DNA of 64,000 bases from Prochlorococcus marinus str. AS9601. GTDB lineage: Bacteria > Cyanobacteriota > Cyanobacteriia > PCC-6307 > Cyanobiaceae. Both the position numbers and the translations under genes were made by a program. The stretch is from assembly GCF_000015645.1 (NCBI RefSeq), contig NC_008816.1, positions 930,001 through 994,000 on the forward strand, in the 5' to 3' direction. Every line of letters starts with the position of its first letter. Position 1 is the first letter of the stretch. Below, one piece after another: positions 20,205 through 48,513 of the stretch. A model generated the notes under the pieces. That model was not told the DNA's origin. It saw only the letters and a list, made by a program, of their open reading frames with translations, and ran no database searches.

Positions 20205-20588
20205 TTAAAACATTTTAGATTTTAGTAAATCAACTCTTTTTTGATTCACTCCCAAATCACTTTCTCCAACTCTTGATTCTGATCTTATTGATAAGATGTT
20301 TGATTCAGGTAGAAAGGATACTTCTAAGTCGTCTACATACTTCATCCATTTACTGGTTGACTCAGCATGAAGATAATCGCCATCTATTTCTACAATCTCA
20401 GTTCTTGGAGTGTTTTCGATAAATGTTTTAATCTCTTCAAAAGGTTTCTCAATATTGTTAACCTCCCATTCTTCTCGTACACAATGAGCGATCTCTACAC
20501 AAGGTTTTAGTTCTACATGTGAGGCAAATGATGAAGAAGGGAATAAAAAGCTTGAACAAATTAAAATTGCTAAAAAAAGTATTTTCAT
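20205..20588 (-). CDS. DUF1499 exported protein
   Basis: 127 residues with a signal peptide (cleavage after SFA near residue 22). The body matches DUF1499: CVEIAHCVREEW at the start, then HAESTSKWMKYVDDLEVSF and ILSIRSESRVGESDLGVN. The conserved RSxSRxGxxDxGxN motif is intact. The family is widespread in photosynthetic organisms and its function is unknown. The mature protein is probably periplasmic or lumenal. Confidence 0.85.
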   Translation of the reverse strand: MKILFLAILICSSFLFPSSSFASHVELKPCVEIAHCVREEWEVNNIEKPFEEIKTFIENTPRTEIVEIDGDYLHAESTSKWMKYVDDLEVSFLPESNILSIRSESRVGESDLGVNQKRVDLLKSKMF

Positions 20589-20723: not shown

Positions 20724-20813
20724 AAAAGACCCCTCAGAGAGAGATCTTTTAAAATTGATTTATATCAAGTGTTTCCTTGTTTCCACTGAAATAAATCAAT
20801 TCCTCCTACACAC
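20724..20813 (-). ncRNA. yfr2: Yfr2-type small RNA
   Basis: On the minus strand, a perfect 10-bp stem (20791-20800 with 20754-20763) encloses a smaller stem and a loop with the duplicated motif GGAAACAAGGAAACA (20770-20784). A terminator hairpin (about 20724-20750) and nine T residues follow. This is the layout of the cyanobacterial Yfr2 family, whose loop shows repeated GGAAACA. The 5' end is placed near 20813 by inference. Which of the Yfr2-5 copies it is cannot be told. The neighbouring region 20589-21079 has no protein gene. Confidence 0.82.
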
Positions 20814-20891
20814 AAACTTAATATCACACTTATTTCCAAAATATGTAATACCTAATAGACCTCTATCTTAACTGTCACATCACAAAAAATA

Positions 20892-20990
20892 CAAAAAGTA
20901 CTCAAACATTGCGGTCGAGTACTTTTAAAGTTATCAGAAATAAGTGTGTGAGGAGTTTCTGATGTATTTAATTTACTCCGTAGGTAATTT
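20892..20990 (-). ncRNA. Candidate Yfr1-motif RNA, hairpin form
   Basis: On the minus strand a perfect 8-bp stem (20933-20940 with 20956-20963) presents a 15-base loop. The 13-base Yfr1 core ACTCCTCACACAC (20956-20944) lies in it, with one base inside the stem. A perfect 10-bp terminator stem follows (20917-20926 with 20894-20903) with a T-rich tail. A TATACT -10 box at about 20998-21003 would start the RNA near 20990. Unlike canonical Yfr1, where this motif is single-stranded between two hairpins, here it is displayed in a loop. Strand is inferred from the better T tract. Confidence 0.65.
20894..20926 (-). terminator. Terminator of the Yfr1-motif RNA
   Basis: Perfect 10-bp inverted repeat AAAAGTACTC/GAGTACTTTT around a 13-base loop, followed on the minus strand by TTTTTGTATTTTTT. 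The plus-strand side has only four T residues. Confidence 0.75.
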
Positions 20991-21079
20991 AAAAGGCTAC
21001 AGTATAAATTACTAATTATTTAAATCATTCAGAAAAATTGGGCGTTTATGAAAAAAATAATCAAAAACACAAAAAAATC

Positions 21080-21443: not shown

Positions 21444-21692
21444 ATGAATTTTATTTTTTCTTTTTTATTAGCATCTGTAATGTGGGTACAAGTTCCACAA
21501 TGGGAAGCTGACTGGTCAAAATGTGCTGTAGATGTTCCCGATTCGTCATGTCACTGGTACGTAGCTGCTCCCGACAATACTTTTGGGGAAGGATTTAATT
21601 GGGAAAACGCTCCTTGGTTTGATGCTAATGGATTACAGGATGTAGCTAAGATTGAGAAAGAATCTGTAGTAGAAAAACTTCAGAATAACTAA
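21444..21692 (+). CDS. Small exported Trp-rich protein
   Basis: 82 residues. A short hydrophobic N-terminus (FIFSFLLASVMW) serves as signal or anchor. The remainder is Trp- and Asp-rich with two cysteines spaced for a disulfide (WSKCAVD, SSCHWYVA) and the block FNWENAPWFDANGLQDV. The pattern looks conserved and specific, but the family is not one I recognise. ATG start. Confidence 0.65.
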   Translation: MNFIFSFLLASVMWVQVPQWEADWSKCAVDVPDSSCHWYVAAPDNTFGEGFNWENAPWFDANGLQDVAKIEKESVVEKLQNN

Positions 21693-21922: not shown

Positions 21923-22708
21923 TTATTTACGAAGTTTAGGAATCAAAAGAGATGCGACACAAATAACACTAATTGCAGGTCCAGGCGACAAATTAAAGAC
22001 TATAGATAGAATAAAGCCCAGAAGTGAGATACATAATCCAAAAAATGAAGACCTCATCATTGCAATTCTTAAACTATGAGCCTTATTAAGCCCTAACAGT
22101 GTTGGGGTAGAAAGAAGAGCAATAACAAGAATTACTCCCACTGCTGACATTGAACTAACAATTACTAATGCCGTTGTAAAACTCAAAGCAAGATTTAATA
22201 AAGAAACGTTTATACCACTCGCGGATGCTCCTTCTGGATCCATTCCCACATAAACAACCTTTTCATATCCAAAAGTTATTAAAAGTATAAATACTAAAAA
22301 AGCAATTATTGTTCTAAGTAAATCTCCAAAATTTGCTGTCAATAAATCGCCAAATAATACTGCCTCCAAATCGATCCTTATTCCAAGTAAAGGGATTATA
22401 AGGACTCCAAACCCAAGCATTCCGGCTAATATTGTGTTCATTATTGCTTCATAGTTTTCACTCTTTTTATTAGTTAAACTTTCCGCAATTACAGAACCTA
22501 AAAGACCACTGATAACCCCACCAATTGAAGGATGAATTCCAAGCGCTAAGGCTAAAGCAAGTCCTGGCAAAACGCAGTGAGAGATTAAATTTACTTGAAG
22601 TAATCTCCTATGTGTTATTAATACAGTTCCCATAGCTGGACATAGAATTCCTGAAAAAATAGTTATTATTAAGGGAACAAGCCACCAACTGCTATTAATA
22701 AAAGACAT
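21923..22708 (-). CDS. znuB: Zinc ABC transporter permease ZnuB
   Basis: A 261-residue ABC-3 family permease with about eight hydrophobic segments. It starts with a short cytoplasmic head then VPLIITIFSGILCPAMGTVL, and has the ABC-3 pattern HRRLLQVNLISHCVLPGLAL near residue 33 and SMSAVGVILVIALLSTP further on. It imports zinc with ZnuA and ZnuC in the inner membrane. znuC is on the same strand but separated by zur in the opposite orientation. ATG start. Confidence 0.9.
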   Translation of the reverse strand: MSFINSSWWLVPLIITIFSGILCPAMGTVLITHRRLLQVNLISHCVLPGLALALALGIHPSIGGVISGLLGSVIAESLTNKKSENYEAIMNTILAGMLGFGVLIIPLLGIRIDLEAVLFGDLLTANFGDLLRTIIAFLVFILLITFGYEKVVYVGMDPEGASASGINVSLLNLALSFTTALVIVSSMSAVGVILVIALLSTPTLLGLNKAHSLRIAMMRSSFFGLCISLLGFILSIVFNLSPGPAISVICVASLLIPKLRK

Positions 22709-22764
22709 TAATCTATTGATTCGGTATGATCAAAAATACGGGGAAAAAAAAGATTTCGGAAACA

Positions 22765-23160
22765 ATGGTAACTAAGCCTGACATTACCAAAAGACAAGAA
22801 CAACTTCTTGAAGAACTTAATAAATGTGAAGATGAACTGAGCGGTCAAGAGTTGCATAGACAATTGATTGAAAGCGGAAAAGCTATGGGACTGACAACTG
22901 TATACAGGAATCTTCAAGTTCTTATAAAGCATGGTTTAATACGTTCTAGACATCTCCCAACAGGAGAGGTTCTTTACACTCCCGTAGATAGAGACATTCA
23001 TCATTTGACATGTGTTCAATGTGGTGAGACTTCAAAAATGGAAGGGTGCCCTGTAAAAGATATTCATACACCCAAAACAAATCCAAAGAAATTCCAATTG
23101 TTGTTCCATACCCTGGAGTATTTCGGACTTTGCCAGAACTGCTATCAAGCACAAAGTTAA
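22765..23160 (+). CDS. zur: Fur-family zinc regulator (Zur)
   Basis: 131 residues from ATG 22765 (an earlier ATG at 22726 would give 144 aa and a 17-base gap to znuB). The winged helix contains TTVYRNLQVLIKHG, and the C-terminal domain has two CxxC pairs, CVQC and CQNC, that form the structural zinc site. HHLTC carries the metal-sensing histidines. Its position amid znuB, znuC and znuA argues for Zur rather than Fur or PerR. It lies antisense between znuC and znuB. Confidence 0.9.
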   Translation: MVTKPDITKRQEQLLEELNKCEDELSGQELHRQLIESGKAMGLTTVYRNLQVLIKHGLIRSRHLPTGEVLYTPVDRDIHHLTCVQCGETSKMEGCPVKDIHTPKTNPKKFQLLFHTLEYFGLCQNCYQAQS

Positions 23161-23174
23161 AACTAAATATTTTT

Positions 23175-23945
23175 TTAATCACAACAATTATTATCCTCAA
23201 TAGAGCTGATATTTATATCCTCTAATTTATCTTTTATGGAATCAGGGCTTCCACAGGCCAATACACCTTTATCCAAAACAATAACTTGATCATAACTATT
23301 TAACGAGGTACCCCAATCATGACTGCTCACCATTAAAGAAAGACCAGCATCAGCAAGTTGACGAACAATTTTTAGAAAATCCTCCTTTGCAGGTGGATCT
23401 AAAGCTGCACAAGGTTCATCAAGAAGGAAAATTTTTGCTGGAGACATTAATGTTTTGGCTAATAGAGCTCTTTGTTGTTGTCCACCAGATAAAGAATCAA
23501 GCCTTCTTTTAGCAATATTTGCAATGCCGACTCTTTGCATTGTGGCCTCCAATTCACAGCATTTATTAATCCATGCATTAGGGTTAGCAAGAAGAGCTTT
23601 TATTTGAAAAGGACTACTACTTTTTGATTTTGAGTATTTTATTTGTCCTAATGAAACTAGTTTTTCTACAGTTATTGGAAATTTCCAATTCATAGAGCTT
23701 CTTTGTGGCATGAGTGCCACCTGAGATCTTTGTCTAATTAACTTCTCCCCGTCAATTGTTATCTGGCCATTATCAGGGATACATTGTCCCTGCAATATTC
23801 TTAAAAGAGTAGATTTGCCAGCTCCGTTTGGTCCTACTAGAGCAGTTAATGTACCTGGTTCAACTGTTATAGAAACTTTACTTATAGCCGGGCTTACATT
23901 TTTTGCATACGAATAAGATAAATTTTCAGCTACTAGTAGTGACAT
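23175..23945 (-). CDS. znuC: Zinc ABC transporter ATPase ZnuC
   Basis: 256 residues with Walker A GPNGAGKST (38-46), signature LSGGQQQR (152-159) and Walker B FLLDEP (173-178), followed by a switch His in SSHDWG. It powers zinc uptake with ZnuB and ZnuA. The C-terminus ends DNNCCD, a short Cys-Cys that might bind metal. ATG start at 23945; the Zur-type palindrome lies 92-108 bases upstream and could serve both znuC and the divergent znuA. Confidence 0.92.
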   Translation of the reverse strand: MSLLVAENLSYSYAKNVSPAISKVSITVEPGTLTALVGPNGAGKSTLLRILQGQCIPDNGQITIDGEKLIRQRSQVALMPQRSSMNWKFPITVEKLVSLGQIKYSKSKSSSPFQIKALLANPNAWINKCCELEATMQRVGIANIAKRRLDSLSGGQQQRALLAKTLMSPAKIFLLDEPCAALDPPAKEDFLKIVRQLADAGLSLMVSSHDWGTSLNSYDQVIVLDKGVLACGSPDSIKDKLEDINISSIEDNNCCD

Positions 23946-24036
23946 TAATGATTGAACTTACAACCCCATAATATTTTAATTATGGAAAATAATTTACTTT
24001 AAAAACATTTTATACCTAAACTTGCATATAAAAATG

Positions 24037-24053
24037 AAAATGATTATCATTTT
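24037..24053. promoter_or_regulatory. Perfect Zur/Fur-type palindrome
   Basis: AAAATGATTATCATTTT is a perfect 8-1-8 inverted repeat in the 129-bp spacer between divergent znuC and znuA, 21 bases before the znuA ATG. It matches the AT-rich TGATnATCA core of Fur-family sites. With zur 1 kb away, zinc-dependent repression of both transcripts is the natural reading. Confidence 0.85.
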
Positions 24054-24074
24054 AAAATATCTATCATTTTTTTT

Positions 24075-25238
24075 ATGTCAATTTTTAAGAGAATTTTTTC
24101 AAGCTATATATCTCATAAAAAAGTATCTATCCGAAATTCACTTATCGCTAGTGCGGCATTATTCTCAATAAATACAAACGGTGCCTTTGCTGAAAGTAAA
24201 AACTATGTAGCAGTTGAGCCTCTTACCTGCGATATCGTTAAATCTATAGCACTCCCTTCCGATGAAGTTATATGTCTAGTAGATAGAAAACAAGATGTTC
24301 ATGATTTAAAAATTTCTCCAAAACAGGCAAGATTATTAAAAAAGGCAGATAAAGTTTTTACTTTAGGGACAGAAATGACACCCGCAATGAGGAATTGGGT
24401 GAAGAGAAATAGCACTGTTGTTTTAGGCGTAAGCGCAATTGATATTGACGATCATAGTGACCATGATGACCACGACGATCATGGACACTCAGCAAAGAAA
24501 CATGATGACCATGATGACCATGATGACCACGACGATCATGGACACTCAGCAAAGAAACATGATGACCATGATGACCACGACGATCATGGACACTCAGCAA
24601 AGAAACATGATGACCATGATGACCATGATGACCACGACCATCATGATCACGGAGGCGTGGATCCACATGTCTGGCATGATCCTCATAACATCATCAAGAT
24701 GGGTGAAGTCGTATCAAAAAGTCTTAAAAAAGACGTGTCTGAAAGAAAACTACGCAAAGCTATCTCTAATAGATTCAAAACTTTTGACAAAACACTAGAA
24801 GATCTTGATAAATGGATTGTCAAACAAGTATCTACTATCCCTTCTTCAAATCGTGTAATTGTCTCAAAACACAAAGCTATGGATTACTATGGCGATGCAT
24901 TTGGTTTTGAAACGATAAGTTTATTAGATTTCTTAGGTCATTCATCTAGCCTGAGGCCTCAGAACATATCAAAAGTTTTAAATGAGTTAAAGGAAGAAAA
25001 TGTCAAAGTCATATTTAAGGAGCAAGAGCCTGCTTCAAAATTAGTCAATAATTTAAGCAAGCAAAGTTCTATCCCACTCTCTTCTAATCAAATTTTTGTC
25101 GATGGACTAATGATGGAAGGAAACACTATCACTGTGGCAGTTCATAACACGTGCACTATCGTCAATGAGCTTGGTGGCTCATGTGATGAGACAACAGGTT
25201 TTGATTTAGCAAGTAACTGGGGATCACTTAATCAATAA
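24075..25238 (+). CDS. znuA: Zinc-binding protein ZnuA with His-rich loop
   Basis: 387 residues, longer than most ZnuA (about 310) because of a His/Asp-rich loop at roughly residues 126-200. A signal peptide ends near SINTNGAFA (residue 39). The zinc ligands are recognisable: VHDLKISP (His76), HVWHDPHN, SKHKAMDYYG and FKEQEPASK. The loop carries three GHSAKKH units between DDHDDH runs and may hold zinc or hand it to the binding cleft. Works in the periplasm with ZnuBC. Confidence 0.94.
   Translation: MSIFKRIFSSYISHKKVSIRNSLIASAALFSINTNGAFAESKNYVAVEPLTCDIVKSIALPSDEVICLVDRKQDVHDLKISPKQARLLKKADKVFTLGTEMTPAMRNWVKRNSTVVLGVSAIDIDDHSDHDDHDDHGHSAKKHDDHDDHDDHDDHGHSAKKHDDHDDHDDHGHSAKKHDDHDDHDDHDHHDHGGVDPHVWHDPHNIIKMGEVVSKSLKKDVSERKLRKAISNRFKTFDKTLEDLDKWIVKQVSTIPSSNRVIVSKHKAMDYYGDAFGFETISLLDFLGHSSSLRPQNISKVLNELKEENVKVIFKEQEPASKLVNNLSKQSSIPLSSNQIFVDGLMMEGNTITVAVHNTCTIVNELGGSCDETTGFDLASNWGSLNQ
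24450..24650 (+). repeat. His/Asp-rich tandem repeats in znuA
   Basis: Imperfect direct repeats of 39-48 bp with the shared core CATGGACACTCAGCAAAGAA (three copies) and GATGACCATGATGACCA runs of variable length. Unit lengths are multiples of three, so copy changes keep the frame. Confidence 0.88.
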
Positions 25239-48450: not shown

Positions 48451-48506
48451 AAAAAAGCCCGATTAATCGGGCGATTTAGTGTGTGAGGAGTATGGGGTTT
48501 CCCCCA
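48451..48506 (-). ncRNA. yfr1: Yfr1 small RNA
   Basis: On the minus strand: a short 5' hairpin GGGGGAAACCCC, the single-stranded core ACTCCTCACACAC, then the terminator GCCCGATTAATCGGGC plus T tract. This is the exact layout of Yfr1, a roughly 54-base RNA located between guaB and trxA in marine cyanobacteria, which base-pairs with mRNAs such as porins. A -10 box lies upstream. Confidence 0.93.
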
Positions 48507-48513
48507 TCATTTC

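Follow-up and report, generated by a model that had tools for sequence, protein, structure and literature searches.

The second Yfr1 core in a genome segment of Prochlorococcus marinus AS9601 belongs to Yfr18, a Yfr10-family small RNA encoded upstream of a Yfr2-family RNA

Introduction

Small RNAs of the Yfr10 family share a motif with Yfr1, and the targets of Yfr10 overlap with those of Yfr1 (PMC6778093, published in 2019). In a pulldown with Yfr10 in Prochlorococcus MED4, 384 peaks were assigned to 253 mRNAs, and two thirds of the Yfr10 targets were not common to Yfr1. Binding to the ppa mRNA was abolished by UCCU mutations. Yfr2 binds both Yfr1 and Yfr10, blocks both from ppa, and restored a reporter that was repressed by Yfr1. 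In turn, Yfr1 and Yfr10 shield Yfr2 from RNase E, and their binding to Yfr2 is stronger than that to ppa mRNA. According to the same source, Yfr10 increased 2.4-fold after one hour of darkness, and the Yfr10 homologues of high-light strains are encoded upstream of Yfr2 homologues (PMC6778093). In 2008, the core had already been suggested to pair with the 5' end of Yfr2-Yfr5 (PMC2518516).

Yfr18 of MED4 was published in 2008 on the basis of Northern blots and 5'RACE (PMC2518516). It is located at complement(972284..972388), beside Yfr5, and AS9601 is among the strains listed with Yfr18 in that paper. In the text matches for 'Yfr10' displayed for PMC5069720 and PMC7368042, the word formed part of Yfr103 and Yfr106-108. 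Here we analyse an element that carries the Yfr1 core at a second position in AS9601. The window refers to the whole stretch of AS9601 DNA that was analysed, with a length of 64,000 nucleotides.

Results

A second Yfr1 core in a conserved hairpin

The 13-base core ACTCCTCACACAC occurs twice in the entire genome of 1,669,886 bp. Both occurrences are inside the window, one within Yfr1 and one in the element studied here (Table 1), and the reversed pattern does not occur at all. Likewise, the 11-mer ACTCCTCACAC matched the window twice, whereas 100 shuffled sequences gave a mean of 0.00 matches. The minus strand of the element reads ATCAGAAACTCCTCACACACTTATTTCTGATAACTTTAAAAGTACTCGACCGCAATGTTTGAGTACTTTTTG... 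from 20963 to 20882. Its core is presented in the loop of a hairpin, which is followed by a terminator-like stem of 10 perfect pairs (AAAAGTACTC/GAGTACTTTT) and then by TGTATTTTTT; the T-rich tail of this stem ends at about 20884. The fold further contained weaker extra pairs within the 13-nt loop of the stem. The earlier note, which had described two copies of the core and a perfect 8-bp hairpin preceding a perfect 10-bp terminator, is borne out on these points by the pattern counts and the fold.

The 82 nt of the element folded at −17.6 kcal/mol (z = −4.45), and none of 200 shuffled sequences was equally stable. In the 25 syntenic sequences described below, the 8 + 10 pairs were formed in 98.2% of 441 cells. 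Covariation was slight because these sequences are close: one cell had a two-sided change, a result that 20 of 500 shuffles reached. The simple terminator scan did not list the 10-bp stem, probably because its 13-nt loop exceeds the limit of 8.

Table 1. Positions of the features in the window, with the basis of each assignment.
Feature	Position	Strand	Basis
Yfr18 sRNA, Yfr10 family (RF02362)	20882-20963	-	61.3 bits vs gathering 43; synteny with MED4 Yfr18
Hairpin, core in 15-nt loop	20933-20963	-	8 perfect pairs, fold; 99.0% of cells paired in 25 sequences
Core ACTCCTCACACAC, common to Yfr1	20944-20956	-	identical in 22/25 syntenic copies
Terminator-like stem-loop of Yfr18, 10 bp	20894-20926	-	sequence, fold; 97.5% of cells paired
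Promoter-like TTTATACTGTAG (TATACT 21001-21006)	20997-21008	-	conserved; predicted start near 20994
Conserved TGTGACAGTTAA between both RNAs	20868-20879	-	TGTGACA invariant in 25-sequence alignment
Yfr2-family RNA (RF01701 Cyano-1), MED4 Yfr5 counterpart	20748-20815	-	80.5 bits vs gathering 41; same locus
5' tail GTGTGTAGGAG of Yfr2-family RNA, complementary to core with one bulged C	20803-20813	-	sequence; duplex −16.9 kcal/mol
Terminator of Yfr2-family RNA	20724-20750	-	terminator scan
Yfr1 (RF01116), core 48479-48491	48454-48507	-	58 bits vs gathering 38

Family and synteny

Cmscan returned three matches over the gathering threshold in the window, to RF02362, RF01701 and RF01116. We take RF01701 (Cyano-1) to be the Yfr2 family, which agrees with the MED4 coordinates. 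The RF02362 match to the element is full length (model positions 1-78). As in other Yfr10-family RNAs, the core is single-stranded in a hairpin loop ahead of a terminator according to the predicted fold and the pair counts, and the element lies upstream of a Yfr2 homologue on the same strand. This Yfr2-type RNA starts at 20815, 66 nt past the end of the Rfam match and about 78 nt past the 10-bp stem, so that the spacing of about 80 bases given in the earlier note was right. The element is not a copy of Yfr1: the only RF01116 match at the gathering threshold in the window was Yfr1 itself, and the core of the element lies inside a loop.

In MED4, RF02362 matched at 346661-346738 (Yfr10), 383217-383296 (Yfr12) and 972241-972321(-) (Yfr18). 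The first match coincides exactly with the published coordinates of Yfr10. The third overlaps the published location of Yfr18, with the entire hairpin inside it. We compared the open reading frames at 14-29 kb of the window with MED4 by tblastn. This yielded 22 collinear rows in the Yfr18/Yfr5 region (964000-981000), representing 21 ATG-started reading frames, a few of which overlap on opposite strands, and no rows in the fetched Yfr10/Yfr2 or Yfr12/Yfr4 regions. The reading frames that flank the element, 20205-20588(-) and 21444-21692(+), match MED4 with 80% and 90% identity, one on each side of Yfr18. Therefore, the element is the syntenic counterpart of Yfr18.

Hence, the element is already known: it is Yfr18, an ordinary member of the Yfr10 family. 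The author of the earlier note did not know it as a described RNA, which proved wrong, and had named a previously listed Yfr RNA as a finding that would overturn this reading. The Rfam family, the MED4 counterpart and the 2008 table together amount to such a finding, and we rejected an undescribed RNA on the grounds of the Rfam match and PMC2518516.

The 82-aa protein encoded at 21444-21692(+) is conserved, with 69-100% identity across the Prochlorococcus genomes seen, and had no Pfam match at E 0.001. Beside the locus, a zinc uptake cluster at 21923-25238 encodes an ABC-3 permease, an ABC ATPase, a FUR-family regulator and a ZnuA-family protein. The latter contains a repeated His/Asp-rich stretch (HDDHDD...HGHSAKK).

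Transcript ends

The stable Yfr18 RNA likely spans about 20889-20963 (75 nt), as judged from its predicted ends. The promoter-like TTTATACTGTAG was exact in 17 of the 25 syntenic copies; the other eight, including MED4, differ by 1-4 bases. A sigma-70 scan found three promoter-like sites against 5.5 expected, none of them at the RNA.

According to PMC2518516, MED4 Yfr10 is 78 nt long and is listed as starting at the first base of the hairpin, whereas MED4 Yfr18 has a location of 105 nt, bands of 29 and 76 nt on Northern blots, and a listed 5' end 67 nt further upstream than a Yfr10-type hairpin start. Comparison of the 105-nt location with these bands implies that the ends of Yfr18 are not simply those of the 78-nt Yfr10. 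The start predicted near 20994 agrees with neither of the two MED4 5' ends, and the listed 5' end of MED4 Yfr18 is upstream of the promoter-like motif.

Core and Yfr2 tail

Cofolding of the core with the tail of the neighbouring Yfr2-family RNA gave a gain of −11.2 kcal/mol, but 41 of 300 shuffled pairs were as good, and 883 of 1000 shuffles matched the plain duplex energy. Since shuffled controls were often equal, the energies by themselves are no proof that core and tail pair. Co-evolution of core and tail in cis was not supported either: the duplex energy of the 51 matched pairs was reached by 573 of 10,000 permutations. Permutations as good as the matched pairs numbered 1230 per 10,000 for the 26 non-syntenic pairs (1407 with duplicates merged, leaving 24 pairs) and 5358 per 10,000 within the 25 syntenic pairs. 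Among 68 comparisons in genomes with several pairs, a core was predicted to pair better with its own tail than with others in 35 cases, equally well in 11 and worse in 22.

The conserved TGTGACAGTTAA between the two RNAs is possibly a regulatory site of the Yfr2-family gene. A search of open-access papers, which found only PMC6778093, gave no tie between TGTGACAGTTAA and CGRE1, the published name of a site in the Yfr2 promoter.

Conservation and tandem arrangement

Matches to RF02362 were present in 31 of 37 genomes of the genus, with 52 matches in total, 49 of them over the gathering threshold. At 51 of the 52, a Yfr2-family match followed on the same strand after 61-90 nt. The sole copy without such a partner, at G021:C35:5511-5587 (L007), scores 88 bits and is followed by a gene that, by eye, resembles a short-chain dehydrogenase. 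Conversely, 10 of the 61 RF01701 matches had no RF02362 match upstream; one of these, in genome G010, lies beside a copy that the model missed.

The locus of the window, defined by the upstream 82-aa gene and a spacing of 61-68 nt, accounted for 25 of the 52 RF02362 matches, in 25 genomes. The other 27 were elsewhere, and 26 of them have a Yfr2-family partner, at a spacing of 81-90 nt. The core was exact in 22 of the 25 syntenic copies and in 15 of the 27 others. Including G010, where the copy was found by pattern, 26 of the 37 genomes carry a syntenic copy. The G010 copy (G010:C9, about 14508; L057), on which RF02362 was silent, has an intact core, but its hairpin looks weakened by eye; the neighbouring Yfr2-family RNA reached 60 bits.

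No syntenic copy was found in the remaining 11 genomes. In nine of these, a homologue of the upstream gene was present (69-76% identical) and the fetched flanks had no match to a loose core pattern; the contig of one locus (L059) limits the flank on the searched side to about 515 bases. Because two versions of the upstream gene occur in G010, 91% and 73% identical, the 73% version may be another gene or lineage, so that these results are no proof of a loss of Yfr18.

In a collection of named organisms, the upstream gene was present at 343 loci, of which we considered the best 80. These are the nearest relatives, and their counts say little about more distant strains. Three had too little flank. 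Among the other 77, 76 matched the core pattern and showed the hairpin, with one pair broken in two of them, while the remaining locus (L075) kept the hairpin with a one-base change in the core. The core was exact in 74 of these 77, and all 76 loci had TTTATACTGTAG upstream and GTGTGTAGGAG downstream. More widely, RF02362 occurred in 17 of 201 genomes at E up to 0.001, and 11 of these were over the cut-off. Viral contigs contained no exact match to the Yfr10-type hairpin pattern or to the Yfr1-type pattern; a search with exact patterns is weak.

Genome G031 (51% complete) had six Yfr10-family matches, two of which share a contig, where they are oppositely oriented and separated by about 1.6 kb. 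These six matches may point to spread by duplication.

Discussion

The sequence, predicted structure, family, synteny, tandem arrangement and complementarity of the AS9601 element are established here, and they give it the appearance of a real, functional small RNA. In this high-light Prochlorococcus, it is very probably the trans-acting small RNA Yfr18 of the Yfr10 family, acting on mRNAs and held in check by Yfr2-family RNAs. Yfr18 would display the Yfr1 core in its hairpin loop and would use UCCU/CUCCUCACACAC to pair with AGGA-type sites of mRNAs, some of them common to Yfr1 and others its own. Yfr2-family RNAs, one of which is encoded directly downstream, would restrain it by pairing of their single-stranded 5' GUGUGUAGGAG tail with the core. 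The parts that this mechanism needs are present: a core predicted to be exposed, a Yfr2-family neighbour and the tail GTGTGTAGGAG. The name Yfr18 is absent from the main text of PMC6778093, and its function thus rests on analogy with Yfr10; by this analogy, Yfr18 of AS9601 presumably acts like MED4 Yfr10. The earlier note had proposed either a Yfr1 paralogue or a decoy. A paralogue that shares targets with Yfr1 is near to what has been published on the Yfr10 family, whereas the term decoy fits the neighbouring Yfr2-type RNA better, because Yfr2 counteracts Yfr1 and Yfr10 (PMC6778093).

It is unlikely that Yfr18 is mainly a decoy or buffer, which soaks up the neighbouring Yfr2-family RNA and thereby frees Yfr1 instead of targeting mRNAs of its own. 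The tandem arrangement at nearly all Yfr10-family matches (51 of 52) would suit such a role, as would the strong binding of Yfr2 by Yfr1 and Yfr10 and its protection from RNase E (PMC6778093). However, MED4 Yfr10 has its own targets among the 253 mRNAs of the pulldown (384 peaks; PMC6778093), and the cores did not fit their own tails clearly better than other tails, neither in all 51 pairs nor in the 26 non-syntenic ones.

We give the same low probability to a single read-through precursor of Yfr18 and the Yfr2-family RNA, in which the core is paired in cis until termination or processing releases active Yfr18. In MED4, a 270-nt precursor of Yfr10 and Yfr2 is reported in a footnote to Table 1 of PMC2518516, which makes cis-pairing a testable idea, and MED4 Yfr12 has a processed end within its core (PMC2518516). 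In predicted folds, the core-tail pairing index (summed pair probability over 11) was at least 0.90 in all 25 syntenic precursors, with the hairpin opened (at least 0.87 in another run), and at least 0.6 in 22 of the 26 other loci. Forbidding the tail pairing in the syntenic precursors cost 9.3 kcal/mol on average. The first 75 nt alone, by comparison, were predicted to form the hairpin with a mean of 0.91 in the 25 syntenic loci (lowest 0.21, in G021). Yet the conserved stem after Yfr18 suggests that most RNA probably stops there, the index was below 0.3 in four of the 26 non-syntenic loci, and the permutations of cores and tails gave no sign of cis co-evolution. Moreover, equilibrium folding takes no account of the earlier formation of the hairpin. 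The control was also weak: a reversed tail still gave a mean pairing of 0.46, because it is partly complementary too, and re-formation of the hairpin was rare (0.11).

Somewhat more doubtful still is an extension of the precursor idea to a self-cancelling pair. Read-through would let the Yfr2 tail open the Yfr18 hairpin and cover the core in cis, perhaps creating a double-stranded processing site, while termination would release active Yfr18, so that termination and cleavage would set the ratio at one locus. Finally, a chance copy of the motif without function is ruled out for practical purposes by the absence of expected matches in shuffled sequences (0.00) and by the hairpin, which is conserved in all 77 named loci that had sufficient flank among the best 80 of 343.

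As a discovery the element carries little weight, since the RNA, the motif, the neighbour and the interactions of the family are already in print. Useful additions are the exact assignment to Yfr18 rather than Yfr10 or Yfr12, the retention of the RNA, together with a conserved TATAC-type upstream motif, in many genomes of high-light Prochlorococcus, and the testable idea of a self-silencing tandem precursor.

Among the known systems, AS9601 Yfr18 shares its neighbourhood, core, hairpin, orientation and downstream Yfr5 with MED4 Yfr18 as described in PMC2518516, and differs from it at two loop bases outside the core. Yfr10 (RF02362, MED4 346661..346738) belongs to the same covariance family and likewise has the core in a loop, a terminator and a Yfr2-family RNA downstream; in contrast, its genomic place is another, and the Yfr2 spacing is 61-68 nt at the Yfr18 locus and 81-90 nt at non-syntenic loci. 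MED4 Yfr12, which adjoins Yfr4, follows the same tandem plan, but its core is changed to ACTCCTCATATAC. Yfr1 (RF01116) has the same 13-base core, and its targets in MED4 overlap with those of Yfr10 (PMC6778093). However, Yfr1 is encoded at another locus (48454-48507 in the window) and carries the core between two stem-loops, whereas Yfr18 carries it in the loop of a hairpin.
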